Positions 34,733-50,455 of a stretch of 64,000 nucleotides of DNA are shown piece by piece (the first letter of the stretch is position 1; each line of letters begins with the position of its first letter). The stretch lies in the NCBI RefSeq assembly GCF_000023905.1, contig NC_013192.1:372001-436000 (forward strand), in the 5' to 3' direction. This DNA comes from Leptotrichia buccalis C-1013-b (GTDB taxonomy: Bacteria; Fusobacteriota; Fusobacteriia; Fusobacteriales; Leptotrichiaceae). The notes beneath the pieces were generated by a model. The model did no database searches and was not told the DNA's origin. It saw nothing but the letters and a program-made list of their open reading frames with translations. A program made the position numbers and the translations under genes.

Positions 34733-34951
34733 ATGACATTAGTGGAAGGTAAAGTCGGAGAAAAATTTCTATTAAAAGACATTGATGAGCGAAAATTGGA
34801 CACGCGTTTATTGAGTCTTGGAGTTTGCAGAGGAGATGCATGCACGATTGAAAACATCGCAAATGGAAATATTCTCATAAAGACAGTGGAAACTAAAATC
34901 GTAATCAGTACAAATTTAGCAAATCACATTCAAATTGAGGTGGTAAAATGA
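34733..34951 (+). CDS. feoA: Ferrous iron transport protein A
   Basis: The 72-residue SH3-like FeoA protein has [14 protein letters not shown], then [21 protein letters not shown] and [18 protein letters not shown]. FeoA is a small cytoplasmic partner needed by the FeoB iron permease. Its TGA overlaps the feoB ATG (ATGA), so the genes are coupled. A GAGAGGAGAGAATCTGAA site precedes the ATG. Confidence 0.92.
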
Positions 34952-37139
34952 TAAACGTAGCATTTGTCGGAAATCCTAATGTAGGAAAAACTGCCTTGAT
35001 TAACCAAATTTCACACGCAAGTTTAAAAATAGGAAACTGGCCAGGTGTAACAATTGAGAAGAAGGAAGTTTTTTTTAAGATAGGCAATGAAGATATAAAA
35101 CTTATCGATTTGCCGGGAATTTATAATTTATCAATAAATACACCTGAAGAACGTGTTTCAAGGGATTTTCTGTTAGATGAGAAAGTTGATGTGATAATCA
35201 TGTTATGGATTCGACATCGCTTGAAAAAAATATTTATTTAACGGCATTAGTAAAGGAACTTGGTATTCCAATGGTGATGGCGCTTAACTTTGAGGATGAA
35301 TTTAAGAGAATTGGCTACAAATTGGATGTGGAAAGATTTGAAAAGCAGCTTGGTATTCCAGTAGTCTTTACAAGCGGAAAATCTGGTAATGGCGTAGACA
35401 AGCTTATGGAAAAGGTTGTGGAACTTTCAAAACAAAGTTCATCAGAAAATAAACAGCACAGACTTTTATTTGACAAGGAAATTGAAAATAACATTGAAAC
35501 TTTGAAAAATAAATTGAAAAATGAAAAGTCTTATGAAAAAGTGTTAGAAAAATATCCACTTGACTGGCTTGTAATCAAAATTTTGGAAAGTGACACTAAT
35601 ATTTTGGCAAGAGTAAAAAATGAATTTGAAATTGATTTATCAAATGTTGGAAATGCTGAAAAAAAAGAGCTTGAAGAACATTATGGAATTGATCCTGAAG
35701 ATGCGTTGGCAAGAGCAAGATACGGAACTGTCCGTGGAATCATTTCGGCAAATTTAACAAGAGGTACTGGAGATAAATTCGCATTGACAGATAAAATTGA
35801 TAAAATACTTTTAAATAAATTTTTTGGTGGACTTGCATTTCTTGCTATAATTTATGCAGTATTTGTTATTGTATTTGACGGAAGTTCTCCGTTTATCGAC
35901 TAGATTGACGGTTTTTTTAGCGACTTTGTAATAAAATATGTGGGACACGCTATTGAAGGAGTGCCTGACTGGCTAAGCAGCTTTGTGCTGGAAGGGATTC
36001 TTGCTGGAGTAGGTTCAGTCTTGACATTTGTGCCACTTATGTTCTTTATCTACTTTTTTATGGCGATTCTTGAAGAAAGCGGATATATGGCACGTGTAGC
36101 ATTTATTCTGAACAAGATGATGACAAAGGTTGGACTTTCTGGAAAAGCATTTATCCCAATGCTAATCGGATTTGGGTGTACAGTACCTGCAATTTATTCA
36201 ACAAGAACGCTAGAAGATGAGAAAACAAGAAGGCTGACAGGAGTTATTGCCACATTTATGTCTTGTGGTGCAAGACTTCCGGTCTATTCACTGCTTGCAG
36301 CAGCATTTTTTAGTAAACATGCAGCTTTAGTTGTAGTTTCAATTTATCTTTTTGGAGTATTTATGGCTCTTTTTGTGGCATTTATACTAAAAAGATTCAA
36401 TTATTTCAAAGGAAATAACACAGAACTGTTAATAGAACTACCTCCATATAGACTCCCAAGTGCAAAAGTTGTATGGAACAATATGAGAGCAAAAACTTTT
36501 GCCTATGTAAAAAAAGCAACTACAATAATTTTAGGAATTTTATTAATTATCTGGTTTTTTCAATATTTTCCAAATAAAGGAGATGCTGAAAATTCTTACT
36601 TAGGACAAGCGGCAAAAATGGTACAGCCTGTATTCAAGCCAACTGGTTTTGGTGACAGATGGGAACCTGTGGCTTCCATTGTGCCAAGTATCATCGCAAA
36701 AGAAACGGTTGTAGGATTTTTAGGACAAATTTTGTTATCGCAAGAAGAAGATGAGAAACAAGAATATAATTTCTTAGGCGATCTAAAAGATCAAGGAATT
36801 GGATTAGGAAATGCTGTAATTGATTCTATAAAATCTTTGGGACATGTCGCAACATTCAAAATTGCAACATTGGAAATGAAAAATCAGGAAGAGCTTGACG
36901 AAGATGCAGGAGGAAACATTGTTCCAGCAATAAGAAACTTATGGAACGACAAATACGGTCCAATAAGAGCTTATTCATTTATGCTGTACGTTCTTCTTGT
37001 AGTGCCATGTGCTGTGGCGATGGGAGCATTAAAACAGGAATTTGGATGGAAATTACTAACATTCCAAGTATCGCTGCTATTAATCCTGCCTTATGTTGTG
37101 TCAGTATTATTCTTTAATGTCGCAAAATTAATTATGTAA
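34948..37139 (+). pseudogene. feoB: Ferrous iron permease FeoB, broken by one frameshift and one stop
   Basis: The G domain starts normally ([13 protein letters not shown], then [11 protein letters not shown] and DLPGIYNLS). At about 35199 the frame shifts: VDVII is followed in the next frame by [13 protein letters not shown], which one extra A would restore. The second frame runs on to a TAG at 35901-35903, where DGSSPFID meets IDGFFSDFVIKYVGH in the same frame; a TGG to TAG change fits. The rest encodes the membrane Gate motifs and C-terminus. Intact, it would import Fe2+ across the inner membrane. As written no single protein can be made. Consensus error is possible. Confidence 0.85.
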
Positions 37140-37148
37140 ACACTAATT

Positions 37149-37331
37149 TTGAAAGGAAGTAAAAATATGATAAAAACAATTATTGTTGGAATAATTGCGG
37201 TTTTAATTGCATTTGCAGTATTTAGAAAAGTTTACAAAGATTATAAAAAAAATAAAAATCTTTGTGGAACAGATTGTTGTAGCTGCTCAAGCGGTTCAAC
37301 TTGTGGGTCTCATAAAAAAGAAATTAAATAA
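37149..37331 (+). CDS. FeoB-associated Cys-rich membrane protein
   Basis: The 60-residue protein has one N-terminal membrane segment (IKTIIVGIIAVLIAFAVF), a basic stretch, and a Cys-rich tail (CGTDCCSCSSGSTCGSH). Such small proteins follow feoB in many anaerobes and are thought to assist iron uptake. It starts 9 bases after the feoB stop with a GAAAGGAAG site. Confidence 0.85.
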   Translation: MKGSKNMIKTIIVGIIAVLIAFAVFRKVYKDYKKNKNLCGTDCCSCSSGSTCGSHKKEIK

Positions 37332-37602: not shown

Positions 37603-37622
37603 GTTGGACTAGCGTTGGACTA
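37603..37622. repeat. Left arm-type direct repeat (two GTTGGACTA units)
   Basis: GTTGGACTAGCGTTGGACTA consists of two 9-base units two bases apart. The same 20 bases, with G to A at position 10, occur at 48273-48292. The integrase stop is 39 bases away. Confidence 0.7.
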
Positions 37623-37660
37623 AAACTAATGTCAAGAAAAAAGCCTATAATTAAGGCTTT

Positions 37661-38725
37661 CTATGAAGTTTTTCTAAAATTTAAACTATTCATTGATAAC
37701 TTTAGTTTTTGTTTATCTGTTTGAATATAATATTGTTTTGTTGTCGCAATATTTTCGTGTCCCATTATATCTGTTATCACAATATTATTTATTTTTTGAT
37801 TACTCATAAGTGTCGCTAGTGTTTTTCTGCAATCGTGAGGTTTATGTTTATTAATTTTTAAAGTTTCCAATGTTTTATAAAATTTCTCACGAAAATAATT
37901 TTTTCTTAAAGGCTTATTCTCATTCTTTTTTTTACTGAATATCCATTTATCATTGTATATTAAATAATCTGTTGGACTGTTCTCATAAAGCTCTTTTATA
38001 ATTTCAACTATATCTTTATGAATAGGTATGCTTCTATTTTTCCCTTTTCTAGTTTTATTTCCACCGTGTATAAATTCCTGCTGTAAATCTACATTTTCCT
38101 TTTTCAATTCTACAGTTTCTTCGATTCTCATACCTGTATAAATCATAATTAAAATATATTTTACCCATATTATATCCGTGTTTTCCCATAATTTTTCTAT
38201 TTCATCATAATTAAAAGGTTTTTTTTCTTTGGTTTCAGTTTCTTTTGGTAAATTTATAAATTCTGCTCTATTTTTTTCCAATATGTCTATTTCTCTCGCA
38301 TAGTCCCAAAAAATTTTTAAAAATCCTTTTGTTATACTTTTAGTTGAAATACTACAATTTAAATCATTTATTAGATTTTGCAATACTGGAGTGCTAATAT
38401 CTTTAAAAACCAGATTATGTAATTCTTTACATCGTTTAAAACTATTGATGTAACTGTTCAAAGTATTTTTAGCAACAATATCTTTTTTACTGTTTTTAAA
38501 TAACTCAAACAAATCTTTAAATTTAATTCTATGATTTTCTAAATTGTAAGGATTATTAAAATATTTATTTAATATTTCTGTTGCTTCTTTTTTAGTGCTG
38601 AAATATCCCAAAGAATGTCTTTTTTTAGTTACAGGATTAGTAACTCTAACTCTAAAAGGATTCGTTCTATTTATTTTAACTTTTGTTATACTCCCTGTAC
38701 CATTTGCATTTTTATACTTTTTCAT
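37661..38725 (-). CDS. Tyrosine recombinase (Tn916/phage-type integrase)
   Basis: The 354-residue protein has an N-terminal arm-binding domain (RVRVTNPVTKKRHSLGYFST), a core-binding SAM-like domain, and a catalytic domain with the first Arg in YTGMRIEETVEL, HDCRKTLATLM (His-x-x-Arg) and MGHENIATTKQYY (His and the nucleophile Tyr). It should integrate and excise the surrounding element. I chose ATG 38725, preceded by ATGGAGAAA; the frame stays open eight codons further. The stop points to the left end of the element, the usual placement for int. Confidence 0.93.
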   Translation of the reverse strand: MKKYKNANGTGSITKVKINRTNPFRVRVTNPVTKKRHSLGYFSTKKEATEILNKYFNNPYNLENHRIKFKDLFELFKNSKKDIVAKNTLNSYINSFKRCKELHNLVFKDISTPVLQNLINDLNCSISTKSITKGFLKIFWDYAREIDILEKNRAEFINLPKETETKEKKPFNYDEIEKLWENTDIIWVKYILIMIYTGMRIEETVELKKENVDLQQEFIHGGNKTRKGKNRSIPIHKDIVEIIKELYENSPTDYLIYNDKWIFSKKKNENKPLRKNYFREKFYKTLETLKINKHKPHDCRKTLATLMSNQKINNIVITDIMGHENIATTKQYYIQTDKQKLKLSMNSLNFRKTS

Positions 38726-38811
38726 ATTTTCTCCATTCTGAAAATCCAACTAAAAAGCATTATCTGCTTTATAATTTTAATATTATTTTTCTTTCATTGC
38801 AATATATTTAT

Positions 38812-39030
38812 TTAAAAAAATATCTGTACTAATTCATCATTACTCAATTCTAACAATTCTTTTAATTCATATATTTCTGATTGTGTAAAAAAATTTTTTC
38901 CATTCATTTTTTTATTTAGTCCACTTTCTGATATATTCATTTTTTTTGATATTTCTTTATAGTTCAATTTCTTCTTTCTAATTCTACTTTTCAATGTATA
39001 GTATACTAATCTCTTATCTTCTAAATTCAT
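38812..39030 (-). CDS. Small Cro-like HTH protein 1
   Basis: The roughly 72-residue protein has a helix-turn-helix (YKEISKKMNISESGLNKKMNG) and ends LSNDELVQIFF. It resembles two other small proteins in the element (40142-40345 and 46076-46279) that end in IFF and have Ser/Thr-x-x-x-x-KI/M-N-G in the recognition helix. Such proteins are Cro-like repressors or excisionase-type regulators. It lies directly before the integrase, so it may control int. Start chosen at the ATG after GAGTGG; a GTG three codons upstream is possible. Confidence 0.7.
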   Translation of the reverse strand: MNLEDKRLVYYTLKSRIRKKKLNYKEISKKMNISESGLNKKMNGKNFFTQSEIYELKELLELSNDELVQIFF

Positions 39031-39085
39031 ATTTACCACTCTACTTTCTCTATTTTTATTAGTATATTTTTAGCTAGAATAAGTT

Positions 39086-39250
39086 AAAATAAGTTGCAAA
39101 TTTTTATATATTACGTTTTTTGATTTTTAACTTGTATTTTAGATATATTTTCTGTTTATAGCTTTCAATAATTTAAAAATTTATTGCATAAAATTATTTT
39201 TTTTTTTGATTTGTTATTATCAATCAAAGGGGCTAAGTCTAACAGGAAGT
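39086..39250. repeat. Conserved non-coding block 1 beside rep1 (second copy at 42795)
   Basis: It begins AAAATAAGTTGCAAATT and ends with AAAAATTTATT, ATAAAATTATTTTTT and CAAAGGGGCTAAGTCTAACAGG. The same ordered blocks occur at 42795-42940. It lies immediately after the rep1 stop codon and contains a TTTGATT...AATCAAA inverted repeat. A replication origin or a recombination remnant are both possible. Confidence 0.55.
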
Positions 39251-39254
39251 ATTC

Positions 39255-40019
39255 TTATTCTTTAAATTTACTCCAATGATATATTCTTTTCCTTTTTATA
39301 ATATTTAGATAAGCAGAAAGGATTGTCTTATTTTCATCATTATCAAAAAAATTTTTCAATCTTTTCTTTTTAGAATGAGTTAAATAAGATACTGTTTTTT
39401 GTATTTTTTCTTCTGTACCCAATTTTTCTAAATGAACATTGGTTTTAAATCCATTTAGAATATTCCATTTAGTCTGTATCATTTCTTTTAATTTTTTCAT
39501 TTTAAAATGTTTGTATATCCCTTTTATTGTAAATAGTAGAATATGTAAATGAGGAAGAAAAGAATTTCTTTCAGGATTGTAGGCTATTTCCATTACTCTT
39601 AAATATCCTTTTACAGTCTTTTTCAAAAAAGGACTTTTGACTAATTTATTAAAGTTTGTCCTTACTACATTTAATTCATTTTGTAATCTACTTTTATCAT
39701 CAATTTCAACATTTTTTCCATTTATTGTCAGTATAAATATCAAATATCTATTTTTAAAATTTTCTATTTTCTTCATTATTTCAAAATATTTGGCACTTCT
39801 GTCTATTTCATCACATATAGGACAGCTTCTCCGTTTACATCTTAAATTTTTAGTAAATTTCATTGAGTTTTCGTGGCATTCAATATAATTATTAAAACAG
39901 GTATTAATACTGCTGTATTCAGATTTTGATATTATTTCGTATTCAGAATACCATTCAAGAGCCTTTAAATAATAATTTTCTTTCTCTTCTTTCACTTTTT
40001 CTGTATCTATTTTTATCAC
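39255..40019 (-). CDS. Rolling-circle replication initiator (Rep_1-like) 1
   Basis: The 254-residue protein matches pC194/pUB110-type Rep proteins: a Cys motif CKRRSCPICDEIDRS, the metal-binding HUH motif in FLPHLHILLFTIKG, and the catalytic Tyr in KTVSYLTHSKKK. It would nick an origin and become linked to the 5' end. The start is uncertain: the frame opens with GTG 40019, but AGGAG is only one base before it; a start at codon 4 would fit the spacing but reads ATA. A large hairpin lies just upstream. A paralogue lies at 40697-41440. Confidence 0.85.
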   Translation of the reverse strand: MIKIDTEKVKEEKENYYLKALEWYSEYEIISKSEYSSINTCFNNYIECHENSMKFTKNLRCKRRSCPICDEIDRSAKYFEIMKKIENFKNRYLIFILTINGKNVEIDDKSRLQNELNVVRTNFNKLVKSPFLKKTVKGYLRVMEIAYNPERNSFLPHLHILLFTIKGIYKHFKMKKLKEMIQTKWNILNGFKTNVHLEKLGTEEKIQKTVSYLTHSKKKRLKNFFDNDENKTILSAYLNIIKRKRIYHWSKFKE

Positions 40020-40050
40020 TCCTATTAATTTTTAATTTATTTTTTGAAAA

Positions 40051-40128
40051 GAGTATGGTACAATAAAAGTGGCTGTGAGTGATTTTATAAGTTTTCTTAT
40101 AAAATTGCTCCTTTTATTTATCATACTC
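40051..40128. promoter_or_regulatory. 78-base imperfect palindrome upstream of rep1
   Basis: The outer arms GAGTATG..AATAAAAG and CTTTTATT..CATACTC pair, as do the inner arms GAGTGATTTTATAAG and CTTATAAAATTGCTC, closing on TTTT. It could form a cruciform or a single-strand origin-like hairpin, or an RNA structure in the rep1 leader. Confidence 0.6.
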
Positions 40129-40141
40129 ATTTTCTTATCTC

Positions 40142-40345
40142 CTAATCTGCAAAAAATATTTCTGTCATTTCAACTGGGTCTAACCCTAATACTTCCATAA
40201 TCTCTTTCATTTCATTCTGCTTAAATGGTTTATGCTGGTTAATTTTATAACTCATTGCTGTTCTTCCTATCTTTATCTTTTTGGCTAATTGTTCAGCCGT
40301 ATAACCTTTTTCTACACACTTAGCTTTCAATTTCTTGATATTCAT
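40142..40345 (-). CDS. Small Cro-like HTH protein 2
   Basis: The 67-residue protein contains an XRE-type helix-turn-helix (TAEQLAKKIKIGRTAMSYKI) and ends DPVEMTEIFFAD. It is preceded by an AGGAGGAAAAG site. It lies upstream of rep1 on the same strand and could regulate rep expression. It is related in length and ending to the proteins at 38812 and 46076. Confidence 0.75.
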   Translation of the reverse strand: MNIKKLKAKCVEKGYTAEQLAKKIKIGRTAMSYKINQHKPFKQNEMKEIMEVLGLDPVEMTEIFFAD

Positions 40346-40471
40346 ATCTTTTCCTCCTATTGCTTTCTAACTTTGTTTTTACTTTTTTTCTGTTATTCAA
40401 CTTTATTTTTAAAGTTTTTTTTACAATTCTTTTTTAATAACCCAATAGGTGCATTGTTGCCTATTATCATT

Positions 40472-40624
40472 CTAGTTTTCTTGTATTTTTTTATCTTTTT
40501 TTAGTCGGTATTTCCATAGAGGACACCTTGTATAAAAGCACTTTTTTACTTTATCTTTGTCATCATCACAACATTCAAGGCAATACCGTTCAATAGCTTG
40601 TTTTTCAGTATTATTTTCACTCAT
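40472..40624 (-). CDS. Small Cys-rich (probably zinc-binding) phage-type protein, 50 residues
   Basis: The protein starts MSENNTEKQAIERYCLECC and continues with KKCFYTRCPLWKYRL. The pattern AI.RYCLEC..., then C....CPLW.YR occurs in small zinc-binding proteins of phages and integrative elements. The four to five cysteines could hold one zinc. A GAAAGGAATTTG site precedes ATG 40624. It lies between rep2 and the Cro-like gene on the same strand. Function is not known. Confidence 0.65.
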   Translation of the reverse strand: MSENNTEKQAIERYCLECCDDDKDKVKKCFYTRCPLWKYRLKKDKKIQEN

Positions 40625-40696
40625 AATCAAATTCCTTTCATATTATTTTTTTAATTTTTTACTTCTGTAATTTCTTCAATAACAGTTAAACTTACA

Positions 40697-41440
40697 CTAT
40701 TTAGTCTTTACCACTACCCAAAGGTACAATTTTTTGTTTCTGATAGACTTTAAATACACCATCAATACTTCCTTATCTAAATCAAAAAAGTTAATTAATC
40801 TTTTCTTTTTTGACGTTGTAAAATAAGATATTGTTTTTTCTATCTTACTTTCTCCTACTCTTTTAAATTGTATGTTCAATTTTTCTCCCTTTAATTTTTC
40901 CCATTCAACACTTATTTTATCTCTTATTTCATTCATTTTAAACTTTTTGTATGCTCCTCTTATTGTAAATAAAATAATATGTAAATGCGGGAGGAAATTA
41001 TTTCTTTCAGGAATATAAACAAGTTCTACTACTTTTAAATACCCTTTTACAATATTTTTAAAAAAAGACTTCTTTATCAACTTTCCAAATTTCTCATTAT
41101 TTTCTTTCATTTCCTTTTGTACTTTTTCACAATCAATTTCAACATTTCTGCCATTTAAAGTTAAAGAAAACATCAAATACTTATCAGAAATTTTCTCTAT
41201 TTTTTCTATTACTTCAAAATATTTCCTTGCTTTGCAATAATAGTTGCAAATAGGACAATACTTATTTTTACATCTTGCCCTTTTTTTAAACTTCAACCCA
41301 TTTTGATGACAATAATCAAAGTTGTCATAACATTTTACAATTTTATCTAAATCTTTTATAGATATAATTTCTTCAAATCTATCATCACTATAAATTTCAA
41401 ATGTCTTTTCATACTACTTTTTTATTTCATCATAGTCCAT
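40697..41440 (-). pseudogene. Rolling-circle Rep-like gene 2, stop at codon 9
   Basis: GAGAGGAGTAAT precedes ATG 41440. The frame reads MDYDEIKK, then TAG at 41414-41416, then continues in the same frame through the Cys motif CKNKYCPIC, the HUH motif FLPHLHIILFTIRG and the Tyr motif KTISYFTTSKKK to 40697. It parallels rep1 throughout. Translation could restart downstream at a TTG (41296), which would keep the catalytic part but lose about 48 residues. Either a decayed copy or a consensus error. Confidence 0.75.
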
Positions 41441-41870
41441 ATTACTCCTCTCTAAATTTTATTATTATTTATATAATATTTTCTAATACATATTTAAACT
41501 ATACAGCACCTCATAACCCATAATTTATCAATTTTAAAATTTCTACCCCTATTCTTTAAAAATTCTATCTTATATAAAACTTTACTTTCCTTTGCTTCTC
41601 CTCCTTTTCTATTTTACTAATTAATAATAGTAGAGTTGCGTCAATTCTGTCCGTATCACTCTTATCCGTGCTATTACTTATTTATAATTAGCAAAAAATT
41701 CACAAAATAATCTTAATTACTATTGCCTTTTCTTTAAAATATCAATTTCTGTTATTTTAAATAAGGCGTATAAACTTTTGTACGTTATAAGTATAACATA
41801 TAAAATTTTATATGTCAACACTCTTTTAAAAAAAATTTTTTTATGCTATAATAAATCAAAATAAAAATAG
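41441..41870. other. Divergent control region of the rep module
   Basis: This is 430 bases without a gene. The right third holds the rep-side promoter and palindromic operators (41769-41818). The left part has no open frame or repeat that I recognise. Confidence 0.5.
41790..41818 (-). promoter_or_regulatory. Minus-strand promoter with a 20-bp palindromic operator
   Basis: TTGACA (41813-41818) and TATACT (41790-41795) are 17 bases apart. The spacer holds the perfect palindrome ACATATAAAATTTTATATGT (41796-41815). GTTATACTTATAAC overlaps the -10, and CGTACAAAAGTTTATACG lies next to it. The repressor gene at 41883 is the obvious ligand source. Confidence 0.75.
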
Positions 41871-41882
41871 GTGGTTATTATT

Positions 41883-42650
41883 ATGAAAATAAATGAAAAA
41901 TTAAAAGACCTTAGACTAAAAAATAATATGACACAGCGAGAATTAGCAGAAAAATTGGGAATTTCTATTCCTACACTACAAAAATATGAATATGGTACGT
42001 TAAAGATAAAAAATGAAGTTATCTTATCATTATGTGATATTTTTGACATTTCTCCTGATGATTTTTTTAATGAAAAAAGAAATGACATATTCAAAGAAAC
42101 GGATAATTTATTAAAAGAATTAGATAAATTTAAAAATACAGATATAATAAAAGAATTAGATGAATTTGAAAAAAAAGAATATAGAAAAAATAGAGCATTG
42201 CTTGTCATTGAAAAAATAAGAAAAGATATGCAAAAAAAGGAAGAAATAGAAAAACAAAGACAAATTAAATTATCTGATTATAGAAAAAGGGTAATTAACG
42301 AAAAAATGGAAACATTTGAAGACTTTTATTATTATGAAGAAGACTTGGAAATAAATCAATTGGAATTTAAAAATTTATTTCCACTTATACAATTTTTGAT
42401 GTCTTATTTTGATTTAGATATTGAAATTAACAGAGAAATGGAACATTCTCCGTATGTAAAAATTTATAGCGAAAAACTAAAAATAAAATACGAATTGAGT
42501 ACCGAAGGGTTTGAAGAATTTTTAACTTTCTTAAATGATGATTTGATACATAATTTCTTTAGTTTATTAAATTATCGTTTTTCTAATGAGTTTGAAGAAG
42601 AGCAAGATGATGAGTATGAAATAATTGAAGATGAGGAAGATGATGAGTGA
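41883..42650 (+). CDS. XRE-family repressor with long acidic C-terminus
   Basis: The product has 255 residues from ATG 41883 (preceded by AGGTGGTTATT), or 259 from an upstream start. An N-terminal XRE helix-turn-helix (MTQRELAEKLGISIPTLQKY, about residues 18-37) is followed by charged helical sequence and a tail of Glu/Asp (EEEQDDEYEIIEDEEDDE). It is divergent from the rep-side promoter, whose spacer is a palindrome, so a CI-like repressor role is likely. No protease or LexA-like C-terminal motif is seen. A hairpin terminator follows. Confidence 0.85.
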   Translation: MKINEKLKDLRLKNNMTQRELAEKLGISIPTLQKYEYGTLKIKNEVILSLCDIFDISPDDFFNEKRNDIFKETDNLLKELDKFKNTDIIKELDEFEKKEYRKNRALLVIEKIRKDMQKKEEIEKQRQIKLSDYRKRVINEKMETFEDFYYYEEDLEINQLEFKNLFPLIQFLMSYFDLDIEINREMEHSPYVKIYSEKLKIKYELSTEGFEEFLTFLNDDLIHNFFSLLNYRFSNEFEEEQDDEYEIIEDEEDDE

Positions 42651-42689
42651 TATTATTTTAGCTAATATAGAAATTTTAACAATATTCAA

Positions 42690-42722
42690 AAAGAGTGTAG
42701 TCTGTATTTTTACACTCTTTGA
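42690..42722 (+). terminator. Terminator after the XRE repressor
   Basis: AAAGAGTGTA pairs with TACACTCTTT around GTCTGTATTTT. The U-run after it is short. Confidence 0.6.
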
Positions 42723-42794
42723 TTTCAACTTCTAAATTTATTTTATTGATTTACTTTTTCTTAATTTTTCTTATATCTTTTAACTAATTTTTTT

Positions 42795-42940
42795 AAAATA
42801 AGTTGCAAATTCTTGTATCTCATTTCTTACTTAATATTCAAAATAAATTACTTATTTTTAATTTCCAACAACTAAAAATTTATTTTATAAAATTATTTTT
42901 TACTTGATTGTTCTTGTCCAAAGGGGATTAAGTATAGAGG
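42795..42940. repeat. Conserved non-coding block 2
   Basis: Starts with AAAATAAGTTGCAAATT and ends CAAAGGGGATTAAGTATAGAGG, like 39086-39250. No rep gene lies beside this copy. The rest of the gap 42651-43126 shows no gene. Confidence 0.55.
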
Positions 42941-43083
42941 GATTTATTTTTGTCCTTAATTTGAGCGGAAAAGGGGGTACAAAGCGATTTAAAAAGTTTT
43001 TGGATAAAATGTACCAATAATTATTTTAACACTCTAAAACGCTAAAATTTGTTCTATTTTATTTCAAAAAATTTATTTGTTAT

Positions 43084-43125
43084 AAAAAAAGTTGCTTACA
43101 ATTTAGAAAGAAGCAACTTCTTTAT
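43084..43125 (-). terminator. Terminator after the secreted 182-residue protein
   Basis: On the minus strand AAGTTGCTT pairs with AAGCAACTT and is followed by T7. The loop is about 13 bases. Confidence 0.8.
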
Positions 43126-43126
43126 T

Positions 43127-43675
43127 TTATTTTTCATATATAGTTATTTTCATTCTATACTCTGTATACCCTGAATAATCTGTATAGTTAGCATTAAGTC
43201 CTTGTCTATATGTTTCTCTTCCAAAAGCCCCTACTGCTTTACTAAAAACAGAGCCACCCGATAATCCAGCTTCAAGATAAACAGTATAATAATCAAGATT
43301 AAGTTTCATAGTATCATCAGTTATATAATACAATGAATCCAGTTCCCAATTTACACCGTCAACAATTTCTCTTCTTAATCCTATTATCCCGCCTACATTA
43401 GTTAATAAATAATTTATAACATTTCCACGGTTTTTCCCAAAATAATACGGAACTCTTAATTCTACTTTAGTGACAGCATTACCTTTATAAAAAACTCTTG
43501 CTCTCGCATCACTAACTGTGTACTCGAAATAACTACCTGTTTGTTTTTTATATTTAAAATCACTATTTTTAGGAACTTGTTTAGAATAAATTTTTATTTC
43601 ATCAACAGAATTAAAAGCAAATGTTAAAATTCCTAATAAGAAAAATAAAAAAATTATATTTTTTTCATAAAACAC
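43127..43675 (-). CDS. Secreted hypothetical protein with suspect start
   Basis: The frame has a hydrophobic N-terminus (IIFLFFLLGILTFAFNS) and an exported body with IYSKQVPKNSDFKYKKQTG and many aromatic strands. I do not recognise the family. The only in-frame start is GTG 43675, which is inside the ribosome site AAGGAGTG. An ATG at 43668 with ideal spacing is out of frame and meets TAA after four codons. One more A in the following run of seven would join it to the frame as MKKNIIFLFF. A one-base deletion, real or a sequencing artefact, is therefore likely. Confidence 0.6.
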   Translation of the reverse strand: MFYEKNIIFLFFLLGILTFAFNSVDEIKIYSKQVPKNSDFKYKKQTGSYFEYTVSDARARVFYKGNAVTKVELRVPYYFGKNRGNVINYLLTNVGGIIGLRREIVDGVNWELDSLYYITDDTMKLNLDYYTVYLEAGLSGGSVFSKAVGAFGRETYRQGLNANYTDYSGYTEYRMKITIYEK

Positions 43676-43765
43676 TCCTTAATTTTAAAATAAATTTTAT
43701 TTACAATAATTTTCGCAAATAATCTACACGAATCATTATCAAAGTTTTATATTCGTCTTTGTTGG

Positions 43766-43846
43766 TTAAGAATACGAGAAATATGTAAAATCGGAGCAAC
43801 TTGTCATTAATACTCCTATTATTATTGAAAAAATTCTTTTCTTCAT
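43766..43846 (-). CDS. Putative very small lipoprotein, 26 residues
   Basis: MKKRIFSIIIGVLMTSCSDF is a typical lipoprotein signal with lipobox LMTSC, preceded by AAGGAGATGATT. The frame stops eight residues after that, at 43766. Another frame continues with LTNKDEYKTLIMIRVDY to just before the next gene, so a one-base indel may have shortened a protein of about 48 residues. It could be a small lysis-type lipoprotein, but nothing else supports that. It is in line with the 182-residue secreted protein and probably in its operon. Confidence 0.4.
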   Translation of the reverse strand: MKKRIFSIIIGVLMTSCSDFTYFSYS

Positions 43847-43904
43847 AATAAAATCATCTCCTTCCTGATTTTTTGTTTACCTAAAATATTTTATAACTTA
43901 ATTA

Positions 43905-45953
43905 TCACTTTCTTTTCAAAACAAAATATATTTCATCACTTAATTCAAAATTAGAAGCTATTATATCTGCATAACTTAAAATCGCATTTGCATTTAAATT
44001 ACTCTCAATATATAAATCATTACTAATCTCTATTGGTTGTCTAAGTTTAAAGGTTGAATTTGAGAGTATAACCCTTTCTTTTGTTTGAAAATTAGGATTA
44101 TAAATTAATTCTTTAAATGTATCAGAATCAAAATCATACAATACAATACATAATTTTTCTAATAATCCTTTCCAAGATTTTACAGGATATGGAATACCAT
44201 CAATTATTAATTTATCAGGTTTTTCTCCAGTCACGTTAATACTTGAATTTAACAAATACTCTTTTCCATACTCTATATTATTTAATTTTTGTATTTTATA
44301 ACCTGCTGGAATACTCCAAATTTCTTTTGACTTTTCATATAACTGTTCAGCTCTATTTTTAATTTCATTGTCTGTCCATATTTGATAATCATCTATATTT
44401 TTTGTTATCTCAATATTTGATTTTTTATAAAACTCTTTTTTTGTTTTGAAATTCTTATTATAACGTAATAACTCATTTTCTATTAAGGATGAATTTCCTA
44501 TTGTTCCCAAATATTCTAAATGAGTATTTTCAAATTTCTTTTCCCCCAATTCTAATTTCCATTCAGAATTTAAATTTTCAGGCATAATATATTCTATATT
44601 TAAATTAGAAACATCGTTAATTACATTATTTGAAATTTGTTCTTCAAGTTCTTTAAGGGTATATTTAAGAAGTTCCTTATTTTTTTCAAAATTATACTTT
44701 ATAAAATTAATTTTAAATTCTTCATTTCTTGGAAATATAGTTTCTAATCTTCGCTCCATTAAGTTTTTTTCTATTTTAAAATATATATCCTTCTCATCTT
44801 GATTTTCTAATATTTTTTTAGGTATACTTGCAAAAACTTTATTAATAGAACTAGTTTTATATCCACAAATTGTCCTTCTAAATATATAAGATATTAACAA
44901 ATCTATTATTTTTAAAAGTTTATCCTCATCTAATTTTTTATAATAATAAGTATCTTCAAATATTGAAAGTAATAGTGGATAAACAGTTGTGTTTTTTAAG
45001 TATTTAAAATGCTTTAATTTTTCATTTATTTTTTCATTATTTGAATTTGCATTTAAAAACCAATTATAATATTTTGAATAGGTAACAAGTTCTTCTAAAA
45101 CAGCCTCTTCATTTAACTCTTTTTGAATCCTCATATATTCTTTAAAATCATCGTAAACTTTATTTTTGTTTGCAATTTTTCCAGTTTTCATTGTTAAAAA
45201 ATCTCGAATAAAATCAGATATTTTCTTATTTGTCAATTCTATCTCAATTTTTAACCAGAAATTTTTATATAATACTGTCTGTTTTTCGTATTCAGAGTTC
45301 ATTAATAAATAATTTCGTATTAAATCAGCTTGGGTAAGTGATAATCCTGTCGAATTTAAACTTTCAAATATAAGTTGTGGATTTTCTGATTTTTTATCTT
45401 TTTCTAATTTTATAGTTACTAATTCAATTTTATATAATGCTGAATATATTTGTTCTGCTGAATAATGAGAATTTTCTAGTAACTCTTTAAAGATTTTATA
45501 ATTTCTACAAACATTTGAATTCAAGGAATCATCATTATTATCAATTAATTGTTTGTATGATACACTATCACTTTCGATAGGTTTTAAACGTATTCTTATA
45601 TTATCTGGAGATTTTTTATTTATTAAATATTGCTCCCATATACTTTCTTTTGTATCTTCTGAAATTATTTTTTCGTGTAAGGCTTTTAATAATAATGAAA
45701 TAGAAGTTATTCTTTGTTGCCCGTCTATCAAAACATATTCTTCATAATCCCTTTCTATTTTTGTTAATACATATACAACAGTTCCTAAAAAATGTTCAAT
45801 TTCTTCATTATGTTTAATTATATTTTCTATATCAGTAAACAATTTTTTACAATTTTCTTCTTGCCAATCATAATTTCTTTGATATACAGGGATATTAAAT
45901 GTTTTTTTCCCTTTTCCAATAAAATCTAATATTCTTATTTTTTTTGCTTCCAA
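43905..45953 (-). CDS. DUF262/DUF1524 (GmrSD-like) protein with altered HNH motif
   Basis: The product has about 682 residues. The N-terminal DUF262 part has IPVYQRNYDWQEENCKKLF and the nucleotide-handling DGQQRITSI motif (about residues 80-88). The middle has the DUF1524 pattern NIEYIMPENLNSEW, then LGTIGNSSL and KNFKTKKEFYKKSNI, but the usual His of EHIMPQ is Tyr. A third domain of about 120 residues ends the protein. Family members restrict modified phage DNA. Start is uncertain: GTG 45962 lies in the ribosome site, TTG 45953 is better spaced. Confidence 0.8.
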   Translation of the reverse strand: MEAKKIRILDFIGKGKKTFNIPVYQRNYDWQEENCKKLFTDIENIIKHNEEIEHFLGTVVYVLTKIERDYEEYVLIDGQQRITSISLLLKALHEKIISEDTKESIWEQYLINKKSPDNIRIRLKPIESDSVSYKQLIDNNDDSLNSNVCRNYKIFKELLENSHYSAEQIYSALYKIELVTIKLEKDKKSENPQLIFESLNSTGLSLTQADLIRNYLLMNSEYEKQTVLYKNFWLKIEIELTNKKISDFIRDFLTMKTGKIANKNKVYDDFKEYMRIQKELNEEAVLEELVTYSKYYNWFLNANSNNEKINEKLKHFKYLKNTTVYPLLLSIFEDTYYYKKLDEDKLLKIIDLLISYIFRRTICGYKTSSINKVFASIPKKILENQDEKDIYFKIEKNLMERRLETIFPRNEEFKINFIKYNFEKNKELLKYTLKELEEQISNNVINDVSNLNIEYIMPENLNSEWKLELGEKKFENTHLEYLGTIGNSSLIENELLRYNKNFKTKKEFYKKSNIEITKNIDDYQIWTDNEIKNRAEQLYEKSKEIWSIPAGYKIQKLNNIEYGKEYLLNSSINVTGEKPDKLIIDGIPYPVKSWKGLLEKLCIVLYDFDSDTFKELIYNPNFQTKERVILSNSTFKLRQPIEISNDLYIESNLNANAILSYADIIASNFELSDEIYFVLKRK

Positions 45954-46075
45954 ATTTATCACTCCATTAATTTATTTTATTTTTATTATTTTTAATTTTA
46001 AATATCTATACGCCAAAACTTATCAACCTTATTTTTTTTATTTATCTCCTTCAATCTTTTTTACCAAAAAGCAAA

Positions 46076-46279
46076 TTAATTGTTAAAAAAAATATCCAAA
46101 AACTCAACATCACTCAACTCATATTCCTTCCTAATAAACTTCATCTCTTTAATCGTAAAATTACTACTCCCATTTATTTTTCTTGAAAATGCCGAAGGAG
46201 TTATTTTTAGCTTATGTGCCAATGTTTTGTTGTTGTCTTCGTGTAAACTCATTTTTGATTTTAAAAGATTCCTTTTCAT
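46076..46279 (-). CDS. Small Cro-like HTH protein 3
   Basis: The 67-residue protein has a helix-turn-helix (TLAHKLKITPSAFSRKINGS) and ends ELSDVEFLDIFFNN. TAGGAGATTTAAA precedes the ATG. It is divergent from the XRE gene at 46413 across a region with face-to-face promoters, the layout of a Cro/CI switch. It is a relative of the proteins at 38812 and 40142. Confidence 0.75.
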   Translation of the reverse strand: MKRNLLKSKMSLHEDNNKTLAHKLKITPSAFSRKINGSSNFTIKEMKFIRKEYELSDVEFLDIFFNN

Positions 46280-46314
46280 TTTAAATCTCCTATCTATTGC
46301 TAATTGGTAAAATA

Positions 46315-46342
46315 ATTATATCATAAATTTGAATTTTGTCAA
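46315..46342 (-). promoter_or_regulatory. Promoter of the third Cro-like gene
   Basis: On the minus strand TTGACA (46337-46342) and TATAAT (46315-46320), spacer 16 bases. Confidence 0.7.
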
Positions 46343-46358
46343 GTGGACTTCAAATAAA

Positions 46359-46387
46359 TTGATAAAATATCAATTTTATGGTAAAAT
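46359..46387 (+). promoter_or_regulatory. Promoter and operator of the 108-residue XRE gene
   Basis: TTGATA (46359-46364), 17 bases, TAAAAT (46382-46387). The -35 lies in the palindrome TTGATAAAATATCAA (46359-46373), so the product may repress itself. Confidence 0.65.
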
Positions 46388-46412
46388 TCATTGATTTTAA
46401 AGGAGAATTGCT

Positions 46413-46739
46413 ATGGAAAATGTAGGAAAAAGATTAAAGAGTTTGAGGGAAAAGTACAAATTTTCTTTGGAAGAAGTAGCCAAAAAGATAAAATCATCTG
46501 CTGGAGCTATTTCACGATACGAAAATAACGAAAGGAAAATAAATAGTGAAAGTTTGATTGGACTGTCAAACTTATACAATGTTTCCCCTGAATACATATT
46601 ATACGGTATAAAAAAAGATTCCAGCAATTTGGAATCATCTGTTATATCGTTTTTTAATAATGAAAATATAGACTTCAAGGAAAAGGAAGAATTGTTTAAT
46701 AAAATTCAAAATGCCTTTTTCAAAGAAAAATTTAGATAA
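46413..46739 (+). CDS. XRE-family repressor, 108 residues
   Basis: The N-terminal helix-turn-helix of the XRE/CI type (FSLEEVAKKIKSSAGAISRY, then ENNERKINSESLIGLSNLY) is followed by a short helical C-terminus. AAAGGAGAATTGCT precedes the ATG. The divergent Cro-like gene and the palindrome between them suggest a lysogeny-type switch, the second in the element. Confidence 0.85.
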   Translation: MENVGKRLKSLREKYKFSLEEVAKKIKSSAGAISRYENNERKINSESLIGLSNLYNVSPEYILYGIKKDSSNLESSVISFFNNENIDFKEKEELFNKIQNAFFKEKFR

Positions 46740-46810
46740 AATTTATCTGTATTTTAAAGCTGTATCAAGTAAAATTAATAATAAAGGTTATTTATAACTT
46801 TTAAATTTGC

Positions 46811-46839
46811 AGGGCCTATTTTTTAAGTGAGGCCCTTTT
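46811..46839 (+). terminator. Terminator after the 108-residue XRE gene
   Basis: AGGGCCT pairs with AGGCCCT around ATTTTTTAAGTG and is followed by TTTTG. Confidence 0.8.
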
Positions 46840-46852
46840 GTTATTCATTCAT

Positions 46853-46918
46853 ATAACCGTGTATCAGCCTTGTGGCGTTCGTTTAAAATTTTTTTTGATA
46901 AATACCTTGCCTTGAATA
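46853..46918. repeat. Paired conserved segment, copy 1
   Basis: ATAACCGTGTATCAGCC...CGTTTAAAATTTTTTTTGATA...CCTTGAATAA aligns end to end with 48035-48098. No open frame is conserved between the copies. Confidence 0.5.
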
Positions 46919-47002
46919 AAATAAGTCTCAAAATGATACTATTTTTATCAAAAATAATTTTAAACAAAAAATAAAGCTATTTATCGCTCTAAATTTCAGT
47001 TT

Positions 47003-47686
47003 TTATGGTAACATCTTAATATATATTGTTTTTTGTATGGGTTTATCATTTAAAATACCACCATACAAATAATTAGCCGTTATGTCTGCCAATCTTATCA
47101 TAGGTATTTTTTCAGATTTACAATGCTTCACTTCTAAATTTTTTAAATTTTTAAAGATAGGTTCAAAATATATTTCATAATTGGAATTAAAAGTACCTCT
47201 TTTAAATTCTTGTAATAATCCTTCTTTAAAATCATACTTCCCATTAGTTGCTGTTGTGTGTTCATCTACAAACACATAAATATTTTCAACTTCATCTTTT
47301 TTTATTCTTCTTTCAGCTATTAACTTTTTAAAACAATCTTTAATTCCAATTTTATAAGCATAATCTAGGTATCGCTGTTTATCTTTTTTATCTGCAAAAA
47401 TTTTTTTATGTATTTCCTTTTGATTTATTATAATACCAAATTTTATAATATTGCTAGTTGCATTCATAATTTTATATTTTTGTTTTCCATTTAATATATT
47501 AGCTTTTATTTCCACATTTTTAAAATTTTCATTGTTATTTTTTAAAGTTCGTTCAATATTTTTATATTTTCGATTCATCACATCTCTATCATTTTTATTT
47601 AAAAAAATAACACCACCATAAACATAGTATTCGTTATGGTTAATATCAAAAACTCCAGATTCATCTGAATAAACGTATATATCCAT
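47003..47686 (-). CDS. DUF3800 protein
   Basis: The 227-residue protein starts with the DUF3800 signature DIYVYSDESGVFD, has YVYGGVIFLNKND, a central VFVDEHTTATNGKYDF and a C-terminal PMIRLADITANYLYGG. The acidic residues (Asp in YSDES, VDEH and LAD) fit the RNase H-like fold proposed for the family. DUF3800 genes occur in mobile elements and defence regions and are often preceded by structured RNAs. Here such an RNA lies just upstream on the same strand. Its last codons are followed by AT-rich DNA without a clear terminator. Confidence 0.85.
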   Translation of the reverse strand: MDIYVYSDESGVFDINHNEYYVYGGVIFLNKNDRDVMNRKYKNIERTLKNNNENFKNVEIKANILNGKQKYKIMNATSNIIKFGIIINQKEIHKKIFADKKDKQRYLDYAYKIGIKDCFKKLIAERRIKKDEVENIYVFVDEHTTATNGKYDFKEGLLQEFKRGTFNSNYEIYFEPIFKNLKNLEVKHCKSEKIPMIRLADITANYLYGGILNDKPIQKTIYIKMLP

Positions 47687-47700
47687 AAAAAAATCCTTTC

Positions 47701-47726
47701 AAAAAAAATACCACCAAAACGGTGGT
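47701..47726 (-). terminator. Strong terminator between the RNA and the DUF3800 gene
   Basis: ACCACC, GTTTT, GGTGGT and then a run of T on the minus strand. It would end most transcripts before the DUF3800 start codon. Confidence 0.85.
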
Positions 47727-47808
47727 CTCTGTGGCTGGCGTTCTTAGATAACGCTTAAACTTTCATTCAGTAACATCACAGATATACAGCGTAAGTACCC
47801 TTACCTGC
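47702..47808 (-). ncRNA. Candidate DUF3800-associated structured RNA
   Basis: On the minus strand, starting about 47808, the transcript would fold as GUAAG/CUUAC (loop GGUA), CUGUG/CACAG enclosing GCGUU/AACGC (loop AUCUAAG), and a final terminator ACCACC/GGUGGU with nine U. A consensus promoter sits exactly upstream and the DUF3800 start codon follows 15 bases after the U-run. Rfam contains several DUF3800-linked motifs; whether this is one of them needs a covariance search. Confidence 0.7.
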
Positions 47809-47814
47809 AATATA

Positions 47815-47843
47815 ATTATATAATAAAAATATACAGAAGTCAA
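47815..47843 (-). promoter_or_regulatory. Consensus promoter of the DUF3800-linked RNA
   Basis: On the minus strand TTGACT (47838-47843), exactly 17 bases, TATAAT (47815-47820). Predicted start near 47808. Confidence 0.8.
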
Positions 47844-48034
47844 CTTTTATTTTAATTTTTTATAATAATTTATAAATAATCCATAATTAACGGTTGCTAA
47901 TTTTCTCAAAAAAATTATATATATTTTAAAGCCCGCACTAAATAAAATCAAGAAAATAGTGCCATATTTATAGGGATGGCTTTCCAAAATGTAGAGACTT
48001 TATCTCATAGGTTTTGTCAAAGATACACTCTCGG

Positions 48035-48098
48035 ATAACTCCGTATAAGCCCCATAGAGAACGTTTAAACTCATTTTTGATATTTTCCCCTTGAATAA
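48035..48098. repeat. Paired conserved segment, copy 2
   Basis: ATAACTCCGTATAAGCC...CGTTTAAACTCATTTTTGATA...CCTTGAATAA. Same order and spacing as 46853-46918. Confidence 0.5.
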
Positions 48099-48122
48099 CA
48101 AAAATAAACTCTTAAATCGGCT

Positions 48123-48155
48123 CTTAAAAAAACTCACTATCTAACATAGTGAGAA
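48123..48155 (-). terminator. Minus-strand terminator near the element end
   Basis: On the minus strand CTCACTAT, GTTAG, ATAGTGAG and T7. No gene ends here, so it may insulate the element or end an unrecognised RNA that starts further right. Confidence 0.65.
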
Positions 48156-48272
48156 AAAATAATACAATAACTAAATTTAATATTGTTTCTAGTTGGATTT
48201 TCCATTTTTAAAATTTACAGATAATGTTGAATTTTTTTATAAAATTAGAGATTTTTATTCTAACAATTTCTT

Positions 48273-48292
48273 GTTGGACTAACGTTGGACTA
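48273..48292. repeat. Right arm-type direct repeat (two GTTGGACTA units)
   Basis: GTTGGACTAACGTTGGACTA matches the left copy at 37603-37622 in the same orientation with one change. It lies 54 bases inside the right candidate core. Confidence 0.7.
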
Positions 48293-48898: not shown

Positions 48899-50263
48899 AT
48901 GAATTTATTACCTGATGAGATACTGGAAACTATAGATATGGTAGAAATGCAGCACCTTGATGTGAGAACTGTCACAATGGGAATAAGCCTGCTTGATTGC
49001 ATTGATACAGATGCCGAAAAGACAGCAGAAAACATTTATAACAAAATTACAGAAAATGGAAAAGATTTAGTAAAAATCGCCGATGAAGTAGCAAGCAAAT
49101 ACAATATGCCAATTATTAACAAAAGAGTTTCAGTCACTCCAATTTCAATAATTGGAAACGCAACAAATACAGAAGATTACACAATTTTCGCAAAAGCGCT
49201 AGATAAAGCGGCGAAAACAATCGGAATTGACTTTATTGGAGGATTCTCAGCACTTGTGGACAAAGGTTTTACAAAAAGTGATGTTAAGCTTATAAACAGT
49301 ATTCCGAAGGCACTTTCTGAAACAGACAGAGTTTGCTCCTCTGTAAATGTAGGCTCTACAAAGTCAGGAATCAACTTGGATGCTGTAAAAATGATGGGAA
49401 AAACTGTAAAGGAACTGGCTGAACTTTCCAAAGATAAAGACGGACTGGCAGCTGCAAAATTTGTCGTATTTACAAATGCTGTTCCAGATAATCCATTTAT
49501 GGCGGGTGCATTTCATGGGGTAGAAAATCCAGATGTTGTGCTAAACGTTGGAATTAGTGGGCCAGGGGTTGTAAGACACACACTTGCTAACATTTCAAAA
49601 ACGGCAAAAATTGATGAAATAACGGAAGCAATAAAAAAAGTAAGTTTCAAAATCACAAGAATGGGAGAATTAATCGGAAAAGAAGTTGCTGAAAGACTTG
49701 GCGTTGAATTTGGAATAATCGACTTGTCACTTGCACCAACTCCAGCAGTAGGCGATAGTGTTGGAAATGTACTGGAGGAATTTGGACTGGAAGCAGTCGG
49801 AGCTTATGGAACAACACTTGCACTTGCAATATTGAATGACGCTGTAAAAAAAGGCGGAGCAATGGCTGCAACTCGTGTCGGAGGCTTGACAGGAGCATTT
49901 ATCCCAGTAAGTGAAGATCAGGGAATGATTGAAGCTACAAGCAAAGGATATTTAACACTTGAAAAACTGGAGGCAATGACTTGTGTATGTTCTGTTGGAC
50001 TTGATATGATAGCTATTCCAGGTGATACCTCAGAAGCTGTAATTTCTGGAATAATAGCCGATGAAATGGCAATCGGCATGGTAAACAGCAAAACTACTGC
50101 AGTCAGAATAATCCCAGTTCCTGGTAAAAAAGCAGGGGATAGAGTAGTATTTGGGGGACTTCTTGGAGAAGCAGATATTATAAACATAAATAATTTAGAT
50201 TGCTCTGTGTTAATTAATCGTGGTGGAAAAGTAGCTCCGCCAATTCAGGCATTGAAAAATTAA
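48899..50263 (+). CDS. PFL-family (UPF0210) protein
   Basis: The 454-residue protein starts [31 protein letters not shown], with [12 protein letters not shown] and [21 protein letters not shown] characteristic of UPF0210. The biochemical role is unknown; the constant pairing with an ACT-domain protein suggests a regulated enzyme. TAGGAGGGAAAA precedes the ATG. Confidence 0.9.
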
Positions 50264-50274
50264 TTTAAAAATAT

Positions 50275-50377
50275 ACTCGAACCCATTTAAAACCGAACTA
50301 TTGAAAATTATATAAATTTAGGGTTTGAGTAAAATAGTCATAGCTTTTGAGTTCGGCTTTAAAGCAGTTTTACTATA
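50275..50377. repeat. Inverted-repeat family C, element 1
   Basis: The left arm CTCGAACCCATTTAAAACCG and the right part GAGTTCGGCTTTAAAGCAG are inverted relatives. Related elements lie at 52213, 56131 and 58824. It lies between the PFL gene and cbiT and could act as a weak terminator. Confidence 0.5.
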
Positions 50378-50455
50378 CAACAAATAAAAAATAGAAAGTT
50401 AGGATTTACTCTTGGCTTTCTTTTTAAACTATAATATAAAATAAGGAGTAATAAA

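Follow-up and report, generated by a model that had tools for sequence, protein, structure and literature searches.

Anaerobes are commonly held to take up ferrous iron mainly through the FeoB pump. In the genome of Leptotrichia buccalis C-1013-b (G000), a stretch of 64,000 nucleotides (NC_013192.1, positions 372,001-436,000; the window) contains a feo operon in which feoB is spread over three open reading frames (ORFs), and the question raised by this locus is whether the gene has truly been lost, whether the break lies in the assembly, or whether FeoB is naturally made in parts. The evidence gathered here indicates that the window feoB of this strain is very probably a genuine null allele of recent origin, in a feo operon that is otherwise intact. 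No literature on FeoB in Leptotrichia was found. Searches on FeoB pseudogenes, frameshifts, gene loss and premature stops returned nothing on Leptotrichia feoB in titles and the opening parts of abstracts, the best 10 of 38 matches on Leptotrichia iron acquisition held nothing on feoB, and the term fusobacteri is absent from the main text of PMC8749426.

Organization of the feo operon

The features of the operon, in window coordinates, are as follows.

34733..34951, + strand: feoA, intact, 72 aa (Pfam FeoA, PF04023, 36 bits; sequence)
34948..35241, + strand: feoB piece 1, a 97-aa ORF with motifs that we take to be the P-loop and DLPG (ORF; FeoB_N positions 2-85)
35199..35200, + strand: lesion 1, one base missing, codon 85 (alignment against 11 other species)
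35205..35903, + strand: feoB piece 2, a 232-aa ORF with the remainder of FeoB_N, FeoB_Cyto and a hydrophobic stretch (ORF; Pfam)
35901..35903, + strand: lesion 2, an in-frame TAG, codon 320 (alignment; a sense codon in 11 of 11 other species)
35940..37139, + strand: feoB piece 3, a 399-aa ORF from GTG with two Gate stretches and FeoB_C (ORF; Pfam)
37149..37331, + strand: FeoB-associated Cys-rich membrane protein, intact (PF12669, 47.3 bits; ORF from TTG)

As read from the sequence, the stop codon of feoA and the start codon of feoB overlap in an ATGA, and for the Cys-rich protein the ATG at 37167 is a likelier start than the TTG at 37149. The last 13 residues of the first feoB piece are out of frame and followed by a stop, while the hydrophobic stretch of the second piece was judged by eye to be the first membrane segment. 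By Pfam, the G domain is not whole in any one frame, FeoB_N being divided after profile position 85 (2-85 in ORF 1, 86-156 in ORF 2), and the TAG separates Gate and FeoB_C from it. The original prediction, that a base is missing near 35199 and a TAG stands at 35901 with all FeoB motifs kept around the breaks and both small partners intact, is borne out on each of these points. Neither lesion recurs in the other 11 feo-bearing species of the genus, all of which share one identical sense codon at codon 320, and the only other gap in the feoA-feoB alignment of 12 species is one of three bases, present in six of the 12 genes including that of G000.

The frameshift would yield a 97-residue stub terminating within the G domain, and the TAG would stop any restarted product ahead of the Gate domains; as the sequence shows, the GTPase and the pore are thus never joined in one product. 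By eye, there is no ribosome-binding site upstream of the second or third ORF. The three ORFs score 110.2, 85.9 and 312.7 bits against TIGR00437, and none reaches its cut-off of 315.65; that the third falls barely under it is counted against the null reading. A second intact feoB, which the prediction had named as something to look for, is not present in the G000 genome by profile search, the sole FeoB_C match being the window locus. A further search returned 15 FeoB_N matches in the genome, of which two are the window feoB and the other 13 were taken as other GTPases. From these observations, we infer that Feo-based Fe2+ transport is absent in L. buccalis C-1013-b.

Loss of feoB across the genus

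Among 13 genomes of the genus, one per species, the C-terminal part of FeoB was found in 12 and is missing from G002. Three of the 13 species (G000, G003 and G002) have lost feoB, in events that are taken as independent because the lesions differ in kind and place. In G003, feoB carries a TAA at codon 104 together with a glycine-to-arginine change at codon 13 (G13R), the final glycine of what is presumably the P-loop. In G002, no feo DNA was found, bar a 49-base match that resembles chance. Its flank is collinear with that of G001 at 92-96%, interrupted by an inserted stretch of about 1 kb and reaching to about 260 bases upstream of feoA, and the 3' flank of feo remains only as inverted pieces (L127:11150-11803), hinting that the deletion may have involved a rearrangement at a candidate attachment site of the kind described below. 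Repetition of the loss within the genus is new beyond the original prediction, which had concerned the window alone.

As far as each tree includes them, the feoB-less species are not one another's nearest kin. In a tree of the 2.76-kb flank, G002 groups with G004 and adjoins G001, both of which have an open feoB; the feoB tree places G003 with G001, and G000 apart from both. A tree of a 746-base flanking gene instead pairs G003 with G000, a contradiction that points to differing histories of different stretches. It is chiefly the difference between the lesions that speaks for independent losses.

Across the order, a FeoB match better than 1e-40 was obtained for 78 of 96 genomes, leaving 18 without one. 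In-frame stops were flagged in only two of these 78, G000 and G003, by a search that does not flag frameshifts, and FeoB is in pieces in some draft genomes (G035, G059, G068, G070 and G075). Within the family, 12 of 33 genomes are without a match at the same threshold, and these are mostly small genomes. No feoB of other strains was found in the viral collection. Leptotrichia thus seems to discard the FeoB pump repeatedly, a type of recurrent decay already familiar from transporter genes.

The 3' flank of feo

Directly 3' of feo, the window holds an integrated element (37603-48292) that includes a tyrosine integrase, two Rep_1-type replication genes, HTH regulators, a GmrSD-type restriction enzyme and a DUF3800 gene. 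The candidate attachment site is a 20-base repeat with one mismatch, whose copies at 37603 and 48273 are separated by 10.67 kb. Of the 12 feo loci (the window, with the integrase at 37664-38749, and L099-L112 in the 11 other species), 11 have an integrase homologue, 58-99% identical, immediately on the 3' side, G003 being the exception, and the neighbours of this integrase differ between loci. From these arrangements, the 3' flank of feo has the look of a genus-wide integration hotspot. An attachment-repeat-like motif with two mismatches was also observed in G002 (L127:11548), between the inverted pieces of the 3' flank. Separately, a dispersed repeat of about 110 bases (L104:4921-5044; window 50262-50391) has 42 further matches in G002 and one long and one partial match in the window; the stability of its RNA fold is not above that of shuffled sequences (z -0.50). 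The integrated element is not needed for the reading of feoB as broken.

Age of the lesions and rival explanations

Pairwise dN/dS between the G000 feoB and the relatives of its clade (five, four of them intact) is 0.059-0.084, and against six relatives of the other clade it is 0.088-0.097; among the four intact genes of its own clade, values of 0.040-0.077 were obtained. Nonsynonymous and synonymous counts along branches are 27/80 for G000 versus 20/87 for G008, and 13/28 for G003 versus 6/20 for G001; the ratios of the two broken genes are slightly raised, but the intact feoB of G004 shows the highest of all (18/25). There is no clear sign of decay in the constraint on these sequences, which weighs against the null reading; together with the low pairwise values (0.059-0.097) it points to a recent break.

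The prediction had set recent loss beside a pair of consensus errors that would leave the real feoB intact, and the latter now appears improbable. The genome of C-1013-b is a finished assembly with 86 pseudogenes, built from Sanger (9.7x) and 454 (42x) data, for which an error rate under 1 in 100,000 is stated; its size is given as 2,465,610 bp in Table 3 and the abstract, and printed as 2,345,610 in the running text (PMC3035221). By hand arithmetic, the stated rate corresponds to about 0.02 errors per 2.2 kb of feoB, and at this ceiling about 0.1 genes genome-wide would carry two. Indels are generally possible with 454 data, but no long homopolymer surrounds the deletion, and lesion 2 is a substitution. 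The local control was a search of the window with 80 non-overlapping ORFs, each 100 aa or longer, taken from 120 kb of G008; of these, 17 matched at more than 60% identity. The match to feoB came in two pieces with a stop, whereas 15 of the 17 were in one piece and stop-free, including the integrase at 61%, and the remaining one, named by eye as the L31 ribosomal gene, had stops confined to its upstream leader while the gene itself reads open. Lesion density is consequently not raised around feoB, with all 16 other window genes that have a G008 counterpart in the fetched stretches unbroken. Consensus errors are unlikely on account of both the stated error rate and this control, and recent loss is favoured in their place, two sister species having lost feoB by other routes.

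The three pieces might instead be a working arrangement, produced by programmed frameshifting and stop readthrough or acting as three cooperating polypeptides. Every FeoB domain is indeed still encoded in order and dN/dS is low, as such an arrangement would have it, but feoB is one open frame of 733-734 codons in ten of the 13 species of the genus, G003 is broken at a different codon and carries G13R besides, and the internal ORFs, as noted, are without visible ribosome-binding sites. No slippery run was seen by eye at 35199, and because the 16 other compared genes contain no internal stop, TAG is not generally decoded as sense; ARAGORN found no tRNA in the 64-kb window. That a natural split is unlikely, as was originally argued from breaks falling inside the G domain and before the first Gate, agrees with these comparisons, which leave it a very slim chance. 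A more plausible, though still doubtful, proposal overlaps with the null reading as a sub-case of it: the lesions may have arisen while the type strain was kept in culture over a long time, perhaps in air or iron-rich medium, and be atypical of the species. The small extra decay of feoB would fit such an origin, as would the description of L. buccalis as anaerobic to aerotolerant (PMC3035221). On the other hand, the second hit would be unselected once a first null hit was present, G002 is without the whole operon and retains a rearranged scar at the site, and 12 of the 33 family genomes are without FeoB at the above threshold; because of this scar and these absences, loss of feoB is taken to occur outside culture as well.

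Other probable routes for iron

With the window feoB read as a null allele, the question becomes how the cell acquires iron. Six of the 13 species have a strong FecCD match (at least 199 bits), namely G000, G001, G002, G003, G004 (where the match is cut by contig ends) and G010. FecCD importers are thereby present in all three feoB-less species versus three of the ten that bear feoB, and the seven species without one all keep an open feoB. The one-sided Fisher test gives p = 0.07 for 13 related species, a value confounded by ancestry. Relatedness weakens the association: all six FecCD genomes belong to one clade, and in G008, also a member of that clade, feoB is present although a strong FecCD match is lacking.

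The importer of G000 (L122:5618-9333; G000:C1:13617-17332) is encoded by consecutive genes for two FecCD permeases, an ATPase and a binding protein of the Peripla_BP_2 family. Its closest known counterparts are the CeuE/YclQ siderophore ABC importers, the binding protein matching YclQ at 1.9e-69 and CeuE chains from 2.8e-69. Against the SstD model it scores 219 bits, and the scores lie below the NCBIfam equivalog cut-offs. The system differs from these counterparts in that it is proposed here, by homology, as an alternative iron route outside feo, and it was possibly acquired horizontally. The other five species appear to have a different, single-permease type, as distinguished by score, frame length and permease number. 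In the FecCD search, the two-permease pattern was confined to G000 within the genus. In G002 and G003, the system comprises a TonB-dependent receptor, a FecCD permease, an ATPase and a binding protein, and adjoins a DUF2470/PNPOx gene and a radical-SAM gene; those of G002 score 223 bits against the HugZ model (cut-off 240) and 237 against the HutW model (cut-off 400). The importers are accordingly described as siderophore-like in G000 and heme-like in G002 and G003, as predicted from these matches.

G000 also has a second metal importer, in which a ZnuA-type binding protein is combined with a pair of ABC-3 permeases; it adjoins an iron-dependent repressor that carries a FeoA domain. All 13 species gave weak FecCD matches consistent with ABC-3 permeases, with a FeoA-domain regulator nearby in 12 of them and not in G007. 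No ZIP match was found in any of the 13. Nramp-like matches, present in G002 and G003, absent from G000 and found, some weakly, in seven of the ten feoB-intact species, follow no pattern with respect to feoB loss. By homology, iron probably enters L. buccalis through the CeuE/YclQ-like siderophore ABC system and the ZnuA/ABC-3-type metal ABC system.

The distribution of importers suggests that feoB becomes dispensable once iron from heme or siderophores can be used, and we infer that tolerance or selection is the cause of the loss. An advantage of feoB loss under oxygen or peroxide is possible. A fuller account, which we offer tentatively and consider unlikely as it stands, is that in oral Leptotrichia a heme or catechol-siderophore importer frees feoB from need, after which FeoB is selected against and repeatedly inactivated. 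Ferrous influx might, for example, be costly in aerated, peroxide-rich plaque, and inactivation would then be seen at different stages, as fresh point lesions in two species and full deletion in the third.

Implications and comparison with known systems

Taken as a single locus, the window feoB is a case of ordinary gene decay, presented in an instructive parallel form. Three of 13 species without feoB at visibly different stages constitute a compact natural experiment on the dispensability of ferrous uptake, and the repetition of the loss makes the link to heme and siderophore importers testable. As a caution, Feo-based iron uptake is not to be assumed for the type strain of the type species.

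With respect to FeoB itself (FeoB_N, FeoB_Cyto, Gate and FeoB_C; TIGR00437), the window encodes all of the domains in order within a feoA-feoB-Cys-rich operon, and the protein shares 93% identity with the G008 FeoB across query residues 85-729; it differs in that the frame is broken twice, such that the G domain and the pore do not occur together in one product. A parallel is found among the transporter pseudogenes of host-associated bacteria, which likewise show fresh inactivating lesions in a gene that is otherwise conserved. Unlike these, the present case comprises three different lesions in three congeneric species, each of which has a FecCD-type importer.
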